This document shows, piece after piece, positions 59,282 to 64,000 of a stretch of DNA of 64,000 nucleotides. This DNA is from Jiangella muralis (GTDB lineage: Bacteria > Actinomycetota > Actinomycetes > Jiangellales > Jiangellaceae): assembly GCF_001270745.1 (NCBI RefSeq), contig NZ_KQ434757.1, positions 1 through 64,000 of the forward strand, in the 5' to 3' direction. A program made the translations under genes and the position numbers. Below the pieces are notes generated by a model. It was not told where the DNA came from. It searched no databases and worked only from the letters and a program-made list of their open reading frames with translations. The stretch's first letter is position 1, and each line of letters starts with the position of its first letter.

Positions 59282-59341
59282 ATGGCATCTGACTTCGACC
59301 TGGCACAGGCCGGACGCGGTGCCTCGGGAAACCGCCGGTGA
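59282..59341 (+). CDS. 19-residue leader peptide coupled to the acyl-reductase gene
   Basis: The ATG at 59282 has GGGGAGGG (59271-59278) directly upstream, a strong ribosome site. The peptide is MASDFDLAQAGRGASGNRR. Its TGA overlaps the GTG start of the next gene by 4 bases. The acyl-reductase gene itself has only a weak ribosome site, so its translation probably depends on this small frame. The peptide itself may have no function. Confidence 0.5.
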   Translation: MASDFDLAQAGRGASGNRR

Positions 59342-61632
59342 GCGCCGACACGGCCAGCGGAGGAACCTCGATCTTGCACGGCGCACACGTTCTCCTCACC
59401 GGCGCGACCGGGTTCGTCGGACAGGCTCTGCTGGAGAAGCTGCTGTCCAGCTATCCGGACACCAGGGTCAGCCTGATCGTCCGGCCGCGCGGCGCGCTCA
59501 GCGCGCAGGACCGCATCGACCGGCTGTTCCGCAAACCCGTCTTCGGCACCTGGCGCACGGCCGTCGGTGAGGACGAGGCCGAGCGGCAGTACCGCGCGCG
59601 GGTCACCGTCCTCGAAGGCGACCTCGGCGCCCTGCCGCCGCTGCCCGGTGACGTCGACGTCGTCATCCACTCGGCCTCGACGGTCTCGTTCGACCTGCCG
59701 ATCGACGAGGCCTTCACCTCCAACGTCTCCGGGCCCGAGTCGCTGTACCGCGCGCTGCTCGCCGGCGGCACCGACCCGCACGTCGTCCACGTCTCGACCG
59801 GTTACGTCGCCGGGCTACGCAAGGGCATCGCCGAGGAGCGCAGCCTCGAGCACGAGGTCGACCGCGTCGCCGAGCTCGCCTACGCGCAGTCCGCCCGGCC
59901 CGACGTCGAGCGGATGTCCCGCAACCCGCGGCTGCTGCAGCGGCTGCTCACGCAGGCGCAGGCCGAGCACGGCCGGGCCGGCGCGCGGGTCGTCACCGAC
60001 ACCGCCGAGCAGGCCCGCCAGGAGTGGGTCCGGAACGAGCTCGTCGAGGCCGGCCGCACCCGGGCGCAGAGCCTGGGCTGGCCCGACGTCTACACGTTCA
60101 CCAAGGCGCTGGGCGAGCGGGTCGCCGAGGACCTCTGGGCCGGCGCCGGCCACCGGCTCACCGTCGTCCGGCCGACCATCATCGAGTCGTCGCTCAAGCA
60201 CCCGTTCCCGGGCTGGATCGACGGCTTCAAGGTCGCCGACCCGCTGATCGCGGCCTACGGACGCGGCCTGCTGCCGGAGTTCCCGGCGCTGGCCGACACC
60301 GTGCTCGACGTCATCCCGGTCGACTTCGTCGTCAACGCCGCGCTGGCCGCGGCCGCGTCGCCGCCACCGCCGGGCGAGGCGCAGTACTTCCAGGTCAGCT
60401 CCGGCATCACCAACCCGCTGCCGTTCGGGCGGCTGCTGCGGCTGGTGCACGAGTACTTCGAGGCCAACCCGCTCCAGGACGCCAAGGGCCTGGTCGCCGT
60501 CCCGTCGTGGTCGTTCCCGCACCGCGGCGTGGTCGAGCGGGCGCTGCGCCGCCGCGAGCGGGTCGTCGACCTCGCCGACAAGGCCGTCGACCGGCTGCCG
60601 CCGAGCGAGCGGTCGCGCAAGTGGATCTCCACCATCTACCGCGCCCGCCGCGACCTCGACACCCTGCGCAAGTTCACCTCGCTGTACCAGCCGTACACCG
60701 AGACCGAGGTCATCTTCGACGACGCCCGGCTGCGCGAGCTGCACGCGGCGCTGCCCGACGACCGCAAGGCCGAGCACGGCTTCGACGTCACCGAGATCGA
60801 CTGGGCGCACTACCTGCAGAAGATCCACATCCCGGGCGTGCCGGGCCTGACCCGGGGCAGCGGCAGTGACAGCACGGGTTCCGGCACGGCTCCGCTGGAG
60901 CTGCCGCGACGCACCGACGTCGTCGCCGTCTTCGACCTGCAGAAGACGGTCGCCGCGGCCACGCTGGTCGAGCACTACATGTGGATCGAGCTGGCCGCCA
61001 AGCCGCTGTCGCGGTGGCCGGTCGTGCTGAGCAACCTGGTCGCGCTGGGCCCGCGTTATCTCCAGGCCGAGCGGCGCGACCGCGGCGACTTCATCCGCAC
61101 CTTCATGCGCCGCTACGAGGGCGTCAACGAGAACGAGCTGCGCAAGGTCATCGCCGACGAGGTGACGGTGTCGCTGCACCGCGGCCTGTTCGAGCAGGCG
61201 CTCGAGCGCATCAAGGCGCACCGCGCGGCCGGGCACCGCACCATCCTGCTGACCGGCGAGATCGACGTGTTCGTCGAGCCGCTGGCGCCGCTGTTCGACG
61301 TCATGGTGGCCGGCAAGATGGAGTCCGACGAGTCCGGCCGCTGGACCGGGCACCTGGCCACGCCGCCACTGGTCGGCGAGGCCCGGGCGTCCTGGCTGCG
61401 CCGGTACGCGCGGTCCGAAGGGCTCGACCTCGCCGGCTCCTACGCCTACGGCGACAGCTACGCCGACCGCTCCTGGCTGGAGGTCGTCGGCCACCCGAAC
61501 GCCGTCAACCCCGACGCCAGCCTGTACCGGTTCGCCAAGTCCAAGCGCTGGCCGGTACACACCTGGACCACCACCGCCGAGGGCCGACTGTCCCCGGTCG
61601 TGCGCAGCGTGCGGGGAGCTCGACGGGCATGA
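59338..61632 (+). CDS. Fatty acyl-CoA reductase fused to a HAD-like domain
   Basis: The protein has 764 residues. The first 380 or so form an extended SDR domain of the fatty acyl reductase type: TGATGFVG at 21-28, and Tyr252 and Lys256 in VYTFTK. FDVTEIDWAHYLQKIHIPG is a conserved linker of this family. From about residue 525 a SerB-type HAD domain follows, with AVFDLQKTV at 530-538. Its nucleophile Asp533 is present, but the second Asp of DxD is Gln535, so phosphatase activity is doubtful. Acyl reductases make fatty alcohols, the alkyl donors for ether lipids. It is the first main gene of a four-gene operon. Confidence 0.82.
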   Translation: MSADTASGGTSILHGAHVLLTGATGFVGQALLEKLLSSYPDTRVSLIVRPRGALSAQDRIDRLFRKPVFGTWRTAVGEDEAERQYRARVTVLEGDLGALPPLPGDVDVVIHSASTVSFDLPIDEAFTSNVSGPESLYRALLAGGTDPHVVHVSTGYVAGLRKGIAEERSLEHEVDRVAELAYAQSARPDVERMSRNPRLLQRLLTQAQAEHGRAGARVVTDTAEQARQEWVRNELVEAGRTRAQSLGWPDVYTFTKALGERVAEDLWAGAGHRLTVVRPTIIESSLKHPFPGWIDGFKVADPLIAAYGRGLLPEFPALADTVLDVIPVDFVVNAALAAAASPPPPGEAQYFQVSSGITNPLPFGRLLRLVHEYFEANPLQDAKGLVAVPSWSFPHRGVVERALRRRERVVDLADKAVDRLPPSERSRKWISTIYRARRDLDTLRKFTSLYQPYTETEVIFDDARLRELHAALPDDRKAEHGFDVTEIDWAHYLQKIHIPGVPGLTRGSGSDSTGSGTAPLELPRRTDVVAVFDLQKTVAAATLVEHYMWIELAAKPLSRWPVVLSNLVALGPRYLQAERRDRGDFIRTFMRRYEGVNENELRKVIADEVTVSLHRGLFEQALERIKAHRAAGHRTILLTGEIDVFVEPLAPLFDVMVAGKMESDESGRWTGHLATPPLVGEARASWLRRYARSEGLDLAGSYAYGDSYADRSWLEVVGHPNAVNPDASLYRFAKSKRWPVHTWTTTAEGRLSPVVRSVRGARRA

Positions 61633-62414
61633 CCGGGCCGCTGCTCACCGGCCGGGCCCTGATCACCGGCGGGACGTCCGGCATCGGCCTCGCGTTCGCC
61701 CGGGCCCTGGCGGCGCGCGGCTGCGATCTCGTCCTGGTGGCCCGAGACGAGGACCGCCTGAAGAGCACCGCCGACGAGCTGTGCCAGCGGTTCGGCGTCG
61801 ACGTCGAGGTGCTGACGGCCGACCTCGCCGACCGCGCGCAGGTCGACACCGTCGTGGCCCGGCTCACCGACACCGGCGCCCCGGTCGAGGTGTTCGTCAA
61901 CAACGCCGGGAAGGGCGTCCACTCGCGCCTCGCCACCGACGACACCAGCGAGCACGAGCACGCGATCGACCTCATGATCACCGCGGTCGTCGTGCTCGGC
62001 GCGGCGGCCGCCCGCACCATGCGCGACCGCGGCCACGGCGTCATCGTCAACGTGTCGTCGGTCGCCGGTTTCAACCCGCAGGGCGGCTACTCGGCGATCA
62101 AGTCGTTCGTCCGCACCTACTCCGAGAGCCTGTCGCTGGAGCTGGCCGGCACGGGTGTGCAGGTCACGGCGCTGCTGCCGGGCTGGGTGCGCACCGAGTT
62201 CCACGAGCGGGCCGGCATCCGGACCAGCTCGATCCCGTCGTCGCTGTGGCTCGACGCCGACCGCGTGGTGGCCGATTGCCTGGCCGATGTCGAGAAGAGG
62301 CGGGTCCGTTCGGTACCGTCAGCACGGTTCAAGGTCCTGGCCTTGCTGGCCGAGCACGCCCCTCGGGCGGCGGTGCGCAAGGTCACGGCACGACTGCTGA
62401 GCGGACGACGATGA
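61629..62414 (+). CDS. SDR family oxidoreductase, possible alkyl/acyl-DHAP reductase
   Basis: The 261-residue protein is a classical SDR: TGGTSGIG at 13-20, NNAG near 86-89 and Tyr154/Lys158 in YSAIK. Its ATG overlaps the stop of the acyl reductase gene. Within an operon for an alkyl-DHAP synthase-like enzyme, it could reduce the 2-keto group of alkyl-DHAP, as yeast Ayr1 and the peroxisomal PexRAP enzyme do. Reduction of fatty aldehyde is another possibility. The role is inferred from context. Confidence 0.8.
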   Translation: MTGPLLTGRALITGGTSGIGLAFARALAARGCDLVLVARDEDRLKSTADELCQRFGVDVEVLTADLADRAQVDTVVARLTDTGAPVEVFVNNAGKGVHSRLATDDTSEHEHAIDLMITAVVVLGAAAARTMRDRGHGVIVNVSSVAGFNPQGGYSAIKSFVRTYSESLSLELAGTGVQVTALLPGWVRTEFHERAGIRTSSIPSSLWLDADRVVADCLADVEKRRVRSVPSARFKVLALLAEHAPRAAVRKVTARLLSGRR

Positions 62415-63181
62415 GCGAACAGGCGAGCACGAAGAGGTACCACGCGGCCTGGCACCGCTGGGCCCGGTTCGTCGCGCAGCGGATGCTCCTGCGGCCCGTC
62501 CTGCACCTGACGACGAAGGTGTCGGTGCGCGGGGCGGAGCACCTCGACGACCTCGACCCCCCGTTCATCGTCGTGGCCAACCACAGCAGCCACCTCGACG
62601 CGCCACTGCTGGTGACCGAGCTGCCGCGGCGCTACACCCGCACGATGGCCGTCAACGCCGCCGCCGACTACTTCTACCGCTGGTGGTGGATGAAGGCCAC
62701 GACGTCGGTGTTCTTCAACACCTACCCGGTGAGCCGCACCAACGCCGACATGGGCAAGGGCCGTGGCCTGGCCAACCGGCTGCTGAGCGAGGACGTCCCC
62801 GTCGTCGTGTTTCCGGAGGGCACCCGGCGCAACACCGAGAGCGGCGTCAAGAGGTTCAAGCCGGGCGCGGCCGCGCTGAGCATCGCGCAGGGCGTGCCGT
62901 GCGTGCCGGTGGCGATCATCGGCACCTCCGAGGCCATGCCGGTCGGGCACTTCTGGCCGAAGCCGGGCCGGCCGCCGGTGACGGTGGTCATCGGCGCACC
63001 GATCCATCCGGAGCCGGGGGAACGCACCCGCGATCTGACCGAGCGGCTCGAGGCGAAGGTGGCGGCGATGGTCGCGACCGGCGACCCCGACGCCGAAGGA
63101 AAACCGCTGCGCGACGCCGCCTCGCCGGAGCACCCGGCGGAGCAGGCGAGCGACCACGCCCAGAAGGAGGAGGCGTCGTGA
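62411..63181 (+). CDS. PlsC-type lysophospholipid acyltransferase
   Basis: The 256-residue protein has NHSSHLD (catalytic His58 and Asp63) and VVFPEGTRR (134-140), the acceptor-phosphate motif, as in 1-acylglycerol-3-phosphate acyltransferases. No clear signal or long membrane segment is seen; it is probably attached to the membrane. ATGA overlap with the SDR gene shows coupling. In this operon it would acylate the sn-2 position of an alkyl- or acyl-glycerol-3-phosphate. Confidence 0.85.
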   Translation: MSEQASTKRYHAAWHRWARFVAQRMLLRPVLHLTTKVSVRGAEHLDDLDPPFIVVANHSSHLDAPLLVTELPRRYTRTMAVNAAADYFYRWWWMKATTSVFFNTYPVSRTNADMGKGRGLANRLLSEDVPVVVFPEGTRRNTESGVKRFKPGAAALSIAQGVPCVPVAIIGTSEAMPVGHFWPKPGRPPVTVVIGAPIHPEPGERTRDLTERLEAKVAAMVATGDPDAEGKPLRDAASPEHPAEQASDHAQKEEAS

Positions 63182-64000
63182 CCGGTGTCAAGCACCAGAA
63201 GTGGTGGGGCTGGGGAGTCGAGGGCATCAGCTTCACCCATGAGGACAAGCCGAAGATGGCTCCGTTCGTCATGGAGAAGGTCGGCATCGACCTCGACCGG
63301 CCCGGCACGCCGCCGCCGGCGTTCGAGGACCTCGAGGTGCCGGCCTCCCAGCTGAGCGACGACCTCGGCGGGAAGCTGCGCGACGCCCTGGGCGAACAGT
63401 ACGTCGACACCGGCGACCTCAACCGGGTCGTGCACACCTACGGCAAGGGGCTGGTCGACCTCATCCGGGTCCGCGCCGGCGACCTTCCCCGTGTCCCGGA
63501 CGTCGTGGTCTACCCGGCCGACGAGGACCAGGTGCGCCTGGTGGTCGACGCGGTGGTCGCGGCCGACGGCGTCCTCATCCCGTTCGGCGGCGGTTCCAAC
63601 ATCTCCGGCTCGCTGACCCCGCAGGAGGCCGAGCAGCGCGTCGTCGTCTCGCTCGACCTCGGCCGGCTGAGCCGGGTGCTGGAGGTCGACGAGGCAGCGG
63701 GGCTGGCCCGCATCCAGGCAGGCGCGCTCGGCCCGGACCTCGAGGAGCAGCTCAACGCCCGCGGCTGGACGATGGGCCACCAGCCCGACAGCTTCAAGCA
63801 CTCGACGCTCGGCGGCTGGGTCGCGACCCGCAGCTCGGGCATGCAGTCGGACAAGTACGGCGACATCGCCGACCTCACCCGCGGCCTGCGGGTCGTGCTG
63901 CCGGGCAAGGTCATCGTGCTGCGGCCGCTGCCGAGCACGTCGTCCGGCCCGAGCGTGCGCGAGATGATCCTCGGCTCCGAGGGCCGCCTGGGCGTCATCA
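63178..64000 (+). CDS. Alkyl-DHAP synthase-like FAD enzyme (partial, window end)
   Basis: The reading frame runs off the window after 274 codons. It starts with a GTG that overlaps the PlsC stop by 4 bases. The sequence matches alkyldihydroxyacetonephosphate synthase in order: KWWGWG near the N-terminus, IPFGGGSNISG as the FAD diphosphate loop, GHQPDSFKHSTLGGWVATRS and SSGMQSDKYGDI, then MILGSEGRLGVI. That enzyme replaces the acyl chain of acyl-DHAP with a fatty alcohol and so makes the ether bond. A D-lactate dehydrogenase-like enzyme of the same fold is the main alternative, but the WGWG and PDS motifs argue for the synthase. It is probably missing about the last half. Confidence 0.85.
   Translation, partial: MTGVKHQKWWGWGVEGISFTHEDKPKMAPFVMEKVGIDLDRPGTPPPAFEDLEVPASQLSDDLGGKLRDALGEQYVDTGDLNRVVHTYGKGLVDLIRVRAGDLPRVPDVVVYPADEDQVRLVVDAVVAADGVLIPFGGGSNISGSLTPQEAEQRVVVSLDLGRLSRVLEVDEAAGLARIQAGALGPDLEEQLNARGWTMGHQPDSFKHSTLGGWVATRSSGMQSDKYGDIADLTRGLRVVLPGKVIVLRPLPSTSSGPSVREMILGSEGRLGVI

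Follow-up and report, generated by a model that had tools for sequence, protein, structure and literature searches.

The window analysed here is the first 64 kb (64,000 nucleotides) of contig C8 (NZ_KQ434757.1) from the 7.27 Mb genome of the actinobacterium Jiangella muralis. At its end we found an operon of four plus-strand genes, encoding a fatty acyl-CoA reductase (FAR) fused to a HAD-family domain (FAR-HAD), a short-chain dehydrogenase/reductase (SDR), a PlsC-type acyltransferase, and a flavoprotein that is predicted to be an alkyl-dihydroxyacetone phosphate (alkyl-DHAP) synthase (AGPS). Coordinates are collected in Table 1. A sequence-only reading of this DNA, made without database searches, had described four genes overlapping by four bases and proposed that they make ether phospholipids. 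The overlaps are present as claimed, with ATGA at 61629-61632 and 62411-62414 and GTGA at 63178-63181. The start of the reductase gene had been placed at ATG 59282; that codon opens a 19-codon leader open reading frame (ORF), and the GTG at 59338 is where the reductase begins. A readable leader is present in all seven Jiangella sequences examined (the window and loci L016-L021), as checked at a fixed offset, with ATG one codon off in one of the seven, and it is possibly translationally coupled to FAR-HAD.

Table 1 Features of the operon and of the X3 genes discussed in the text (coordinates without a prefix are window positions)
Feature	Position	Strand	Basis or remark
Leader ORF, 19 codons (MASDFDLA...)	59282..59341	+	Sequence; TGA overlaps the FAR-HAD start codon (GTGA)
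FAR-HAD: fatty acyl-CoA reductase (NAD_binding_4 + Sterile) with C-terminal HAD-IB phosphatase domain, 764 aa	59338..61632	+	Pfam, NCBIfam, PDB match
SDR, 261 aa, putative alkyl-DHAP reductase	61629..62414	+	PF00106, E 3e-42
PlsC-type acyltransferase, 256 aa, NHSSHLD and FPEGTR motifs	62411..63181	+	PF01553, E 6e-21
AGPS (predicted alkyl-DHAP synthase), 562 aa	63178..64866; last 866 bases beyond the window	+	Sequence, residues, tree, predicted fold
X3a in the window's genome	G000:C3:387129-387935 (L174:9127-9921)	minus	Unlinked to the operon
X3b	L053:4429-5316, L041:4500-5375, L058:3641-4570	minus	Paralogue of X3a, degenerate metal site

Identity of the flavoprotein

By sequence, catalytic residues, predicted fold, and tree, the flavoprotein is an AGPS, its enzymatic activity being predicted. 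This upholds the earlier description of an alkyl-DHAP synthase-like flavoprotein, and the motif quoted for it, GHQPDSFKHSTLGGWVATRS, is present. In a phmmer search of the PDB, for which the query carried 13 additional upstream residues, the protein matched Dictyostelium AGPS with E 1.2e-107 and guinea-pig AGPS with E 7.3e-82, while the best match outside AGPS was mitochondrial D-lactate dehydrogenase (D-LDH), with E 4.1e-18 over 222 residues. Among the best 80 of 316 related loci, its closest named relatives are from Jiangella (J. endophytica, 96%), and the next-best match within its own genome reached 41 bits.

The protein retains the counterparts of mammalian AGPS H300 and HHH 615-617, which we take to be catalytic residues. 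R319, R413, and Y474 correspond to Dictyostelium R352, R447, and Y508, described as catalytically important (PMC3509576; statements on this and the other papers cited here refer to the excerpts that were accessible). The catalytic residues and the HHH motif were kept in 80 of the 81 proteins clustered as AGPS from loci L016-L095; the one protein that departs is a GlcD-like paralogue from L093. The T309 position is T or S in this cluster. All 14 distant actinobacterial AGPS homologues keep R, R, Y, and HHH, and H300 is missing in one of them.

Structural comparison used a predicted model of the J. endophytica orthologue (pLDDT 77, with low confidence for residues 1-18). It matched mammalian AGPS with Z 36.3 and a root-mean-square deviation of 2.6 over 521 residues, and reached Z 35.1 to Dictyostelium AGPS and 29.3 to the D-lactate dehydrogenase LDHD. 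The alignment runs from residue 2-3 with AGPS and from residue 59 only with LDHD, and the N-terminal region that AGPS has and LDHD lacks is present in the model.

The sequence-only reading would have been refuted by a full-length protein that groups with D-lactate dehydrogenases; this refutation did not come about. In a tree of 39 sequences, comprising 33 AGPS and six comparators (three named D-LDHs, 3pm9, and two GlcD-like proteins; M. xanthus MXAN_1676 was left out), AGPS separated from the comparators with support 100. The 17 proteins of the Jiangella-type clade also held together with support 100, and they grouped with two eukaryotic AGPS, apart from the distant actinobacterial AGPS, with support 81. 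The same grouping with eukaryotic AGPS had support 100 in a tree whose comparators were two GlcD-like proteins and four BagG/FevA-like oxidases.

That the protein is a GlcD- or D-LDH-like oxidase instead is, in our judgement, extremely improbable. The top NCBIfam model is indeed glcD, at 115 bits and far under the 568 cut-off, but sequence, residues, fold, and tree all point to AGPS, and H300, R, R, Y, and the first two H of HHH are missing from each of the six D-LDH/GlcD-type comparators. We rejected the D-lactate dehydrogenase identity on the same four lines, including E 4.1e-18 versus 1.2e-107.

Partner enzymes and the proposed pathway

The reductase part of FAR-HAD matches PF07993 (E 2.3e-47) and PF03015, and its top PDB match, over residues 10-516, is 7eoz, a fatty acyl-CoA reductase (E 2.2e-53). 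By homology, a predicted enzyme of fatty alcohol supply is present, as the sequence-only reading had proposed, but that reading made no mention of the fused HAD domain (PF12710, E 4.5e-30; NCBIfam TIGR01490 above cut-off), a putative phosphatase by family. The SDR is a classical SDR without a closer assignment, its top NCBIfam model being mycolate_SDR at 178 bits, under the 380 cut-off. PlsC matched a single PDB entry at E<=0.01, the 1-acyl-glycerol-3-phosphate (1-acyl-G3P) acyltransferase 5kym, with E 2.6e-12. Judged by family, the reductase, SDR, and acyltransferase appear compatible with the alkyl-G3P synthesis proposed earlier.

We consider it probable, from sequences and models together, that the operon serves synthesis of sn-1-O-alkyl glycerophospholipids by the AGPS route. 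FAR would reduce acyl-CoA to a fatty alcohol, and AGPS would swap the acyl group of acyl-DHAP for this alcohol, yielding alkyl-DHAP. The SDR would then convert alkyl-DHAP to 1-alkyl-G3P, to which PlsC would add an acyl chain at sn-2. Sequences and models support directly the identity, fold, and catalytic residues of AGPS, the families to which FAR, HAD, SDR, and PlsC belong, and the structure and conservation of the operon; we infer the individual reactions, what the SDR and PlsC act on, where acyl-DHAP comes from, and what the HAD domain does.

Conservation and co-occurrence of the genes

Neighbourhood counts refer to the best 80 of 316 related loci, which were fetched for encoding a close AGPS relative. 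PlsC lies at most 1.7 kb upstream of AGPS in all 80 and the SDR at most 2.3 kb upstream in 76; FAR and HAD fall inside the fetched stretch in 57, and all four genes are found in 56. Given PlsC beside AGPS in every locus and the complete set in 56, the arrangement is therefore more than chance. FAR shares the strand of AGPS in 25 loci and has the opposite orientation in 32. ATGA or GTGA stands at the first matched AGPS codon in 58 of the 80, where TGA may be the PlsC stop. Among 18 whole genomes from the fetched loci, 17 have a FAR-HAD orthologue; in those checked from Propionibacteriaceae and Kribbella, the gene lies apart from AGPS. Two matches were examined in Nonomuraea (L067), and neither is a FAR-HAD.

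Co-occurrence was counted in 196 genomes of the class and in 158 genomes across the phylum (G013 was dropped as a duplicate of G324), with AGPS scored as present at E<=1e-60, the close type set at 61% identity or more, and no correction for phylogeny. In the class sample, 98 of 196 genomes have AGPS homologues, 25 of the close type and 73 of the distant type only. FAR-HAD was observed in 23 of the 25 close-type genomes (12 of 14 when the 11 from the same genus as the window are set aside), 22 of the 73 distant-only genomes, and 4 of the 98 without AGPS. The lipid type had been described as rarely reported from actinobacteria; the frequency of AGPS homologues in the class does not support rarity, nor does a report of Agps homologues, found by BLAST, in Black Sea actinobacterial metagenome-assembled genomes (PMC11868695).

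Several observations weigh against the proposed ether-lipid pathway. In the phylum sample, AGPS occurs in 29 of 158 genomes and FAR-HAD in 42, and only two (G000 and G152) have both. This overlap is below expectation (Fisher p 0.009), and FAR-HAD therefore has another role outside this class; as an AGPS-only marker it was rejected on this sample. Two members of the window's own family (G239 and G306) retain FAR-HAD without AGPS. The operon's PlsC resembles an AGPAT, so no DHAP acyltransferase has been identified. The sequence-only reading had raised the question whether one follows past 64000, but the next gene after AGPS encodes an MFS transporter and has the reverse orientation, and therefore none follows it directly, in a search confined to the locus. 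A UvrD-like helicase gene lies upstream of the operon. Our literature search for lipid analyses of Jiangella found none, and loss of the AGPS gene in Myxococcus xanthus is reported to lower ether lipids only slightly (PMC9131029).

The occurrence of FAR-HAD in 40 of the 129 AGPS-negative genomes of the phylum sample, and its separation from AGPS in the Propionibacteriaceae and Kribbella genomes noted above, would also suit a different explanation, in which FAR-HAD supplies the formation of wax esters or free fatty alcohols, and AGPS-SDR-PlsC forms an independent module lying alongside by chance. We regard this as improbable in view of the four-base overlaps in Jiangella, the presence of FAR-HAD in the fetched stretch of most loci and in nearly all close-AGPS genomes, and the requirement of AGPS for a fatty alcohol.

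Other arrangements were observed around these genes. Mycobacterium simulans (L036) has a close-type SDR-PlsC-AGPS set with 70% identity and no FAR match in the fetched stretch. Three loci (L118, L121, and L129) combine the distant AGPS type with a glycerol-3-phosphate dehydrogenase (DAO + DAO_C, Pfam), which suggests that DHAP supply is tied to AGPS there; L121 also carries a TetR gene. A LarA-like protein adjoins FAR-HAD at L051:637-2199, L175:11964-13664, and L131:4900-6966. The L051 protein matches NCBIfam LarAH14/15/16 under the cut-off, those of L175 and L131 were assigned by similarity, and in L131 the other flank holds a protein with an NAD_synthase domain, possibly LarE. Four genomes (G044, G091, G143, and G173) have FAR-HAD and a PF10520 (CarF/PEDS1 family) gene, with no AGPS at E<=1e-60.

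A putative diiron protein near FAR-HAD

Clustering of neighbouring proteins brought out a family, here called X3, that is recurrent near FAR-HAD. Antisense ORFs over the SDR gene (L017, L024, L025, L032, and L050) clustered with X3; these are artefacts and were excluded from the X3 counts. One member, X3a (~264 aa), has E56, E88xxH91, E152, and E182xxH185 in every one of the 16 sequences chosen, an E, ExxH, E, ExxH set that we take to be the ligand pattern of stearoyl-acyl carrier protein (stearoyl-ACP) desaturase. Scores against Pfam FA_desaturase_2 (20.2, 19.2, and 21.6 bits) fall just below the cut-off of 22.7. A predicted model (pLDDT 82) matched stearoyl- and other plant acyl-ACP desaturases with Z 16.3-18.2, the castor enzyme giving 18.2, followed by DesA2 (Z 15.1) and by R2lox (Z 14.9), the first non-desaturase; Foldseek gave a single match at E<=0.001, also a desaturase. 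Ligand set and predicted fold thus mark X3a as a putative acyl-ACP-desaturase-like diiron protein.

In all 15 sequences chosen for the paralogue X3b, E88, H91, and E182 are missing; X3b therefore probably has no diiron site, and is perhaps a non-catalytic partner. Its gene overlaps that of FAR-HAD by four bases in Subtercola L041 and L053, and also in L058. In Subtercola vilae, AGPS-PlsC-SDR and X3b-FAR-HAD-LarA-like are arranged divergently, and farther down come X3a and a lipid kinase resembling YegS. The X3a neighbourhood of Jiangella is shared with G239 (genus g126), where FAR-HAD, a LarA-like protein, PlsC, and X3a lie together without AGPS.

Across genomes, X3a was found in 26 of the 39 that have both FAR-HAD and close AGPS, in 7 (and more weakly in 2 others) of the 21 with FAR-HAD but without close AGPS, in none of 3 with close AGPS only, and in 1 of 16 with neither. 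It therefore follows FAR-HAD more than AGPS.

Dimethyl acetals in relatives and the known vinyl-ether enzymes

Dimethyl acetals (DMA) arise from vinyl ethers, or from aldehydes, on acid methanolysis. For S. vilae DB165, whose contig L053 carries FAR-HAD, SDR, PlsC, and AGPS, i-16:0 DMA is given as 17.0%, a-15:0 DMA as 3.2%, and a-17:0 DMA as 1.9% (~22% in total; PMC5945732, Table 2), and these chains correspond to the strain's own fatty acids. The same source records DMA in other Subtercola species, little in Agreia, and, in the part available, none in Frondihabitans. Frigoribacterium D8, grown aerobically, and F. faeni have a-15:0 aldehyde/DMA, and two other species of the genus are listed without it (PMC12823222, in part). 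Against these reports stands a later MIDI study of the same Subtercola type strains, whose available portion shows no DMA above 1% and gives 2-OH-C14:0 at 15.6% in S. vilae (PMC9287328). The discrepancy between DMA and 2-OH-C14:0 is possibly a difference in naming. The relatives' published chemistry points to vinyl-ether (plasmalogen) chains, but is inconsistent between studies.

Two known vinyl-ether enzyme families were searched for. PF10520 (CarF/PEDS1) had no match in the window's genome and none in the genomes of 18 AGPS-bearing relatives (4 Subtercola and 14 others); the search was positive in 18 of 396 Actinomycetota. PF09989, which is presumably part of PlsA, likewise gave 0 of 18 in a search made on these relatives, which was positive in 4 of 14 controls.

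One reading of these data is that the end product of the operon is a plasmalogen, with X3a desaturating the alkyl ether to a vinyl ether. We regard this as possible but rather unlikely, and the assignment of X3a as a plasmanyl desaturase is a speculative guess. In its favour are the DMA of Subtercola and of the two Frigoribacterium strains, the lack of PF10520 and PF09989 matches although both searches work elsewhere, the diiron ligand set and the Z score to castor desaturase, and the position of X3a, which adjoins FAR-HAD in relatives and is retained elsewhere in the Jiangella genome. Its distribution fits poorly, with X3a absent from 13 of the 39 genomes that have FAR-HAD and close AGPS and present in a third of those with FAR-HAD but no close AGPS. 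Z values near 14 are common for helical bundles, Foldseek returned one match only, and a divergent CarF may evade PF10520. The two Frigoribacterium species and the Subtercola study without DMA also speak against the plasmalogen end product. Granulicoccus, which we believe to contain i-15:0 DMA, has no X3a match in its genome (G009), and this counts against X3a as the sole enzyme of its kind. Less probable still, and proposed here tentatively, is a third plasmalogen route in aerobic actinobacteria, Jiangella included, in which AGPS would make the alkyl ether and X3a, as a soluble desaturase, would introduce the vinyl-ether bond, a step that CarF/PEDS1 or PlsA/PlsR perform in the known routes.

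Comparison with known systems

Operons of this kind are known from myxobacteria, the pathway is known from eukaryotes, and actinobacterial AGPS homologues have already been noted. M. xanthus, an aerobic producer of alkyl ethers and plasmalogens, has in the MXAN_1676-1674 operon an AGPS homologue, domains resembling FAR and an acyltransferase, and an NAD-dependent epimerase/dehydratase; of its elb operon, ElbB is a HAD protein and ElbD contains a FAR domain (PMC9131029). The Jiangella operon resembles these in combining AGPS, FAR, an acyltransferase, a dehydrogenase-type enzyme, and HAD. It differs in that the fusion partner of FAR is HAD and not an acyltransferase, that PlsC and SDR each have a gene of their own, and that AGPS belongs to the same operon. 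ElbD-type ACS/ACP domains are absent from the operon, and the Jiangella genome, unlike that of M. xanthus, has no CarF-family match.

The proposed order of reactions is that of the eukaryotic peroxisomal pathway (FAR1, GNPAT, AGPS, and DHRS7B/PexRAP), which AGPS resembles in sequence, residues, and predicted fold. Unlike that pathway, the Jiangella locus has no identified GNPAT-type acyltransferase, places four genes in one operon, and has an extra HAD domain. The PlsA/PlsR system, whose substrates are complete diacyl lipids, operates in anaerobes and facultative anaerobes. Its genes are reported from several other actinobacterial orders (PMC9702350). PF09989 was missing from all 18 AGPS-bearing genomes. 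The excerpts of the Black Sea report contain no operon, FAR-HAD fusion, or diiron partner (PMC11868695), and a table in a mycobacterial comparison, seen in part, gives alkylglycerone-phosphate synthase activity as a GO term. The literature on actinobacterial AGPS and on aerobic actinobacterial plasmalogens, with few subscription journals covered and sources available in part, did not report the operon.

Biological significance

If the ether-lipid reading is true, peroxisomal ether-lipid chemistry would be common in aerobic actinobacteria, in the form of a simple four-gene operon, and the operon would provide a gene basis for the DMA that taxonomists have recorded in aerobic Microbacteriaceae. 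The operon is worth following because of this tie to DMA-containing aerobes that have no match to either known vinyl-ether enzyme. It raises the question of which enzyme forms the vinyl ether in those Microbacteriaceae, and a soluble desaturase for the vinyl-ether step would be new.

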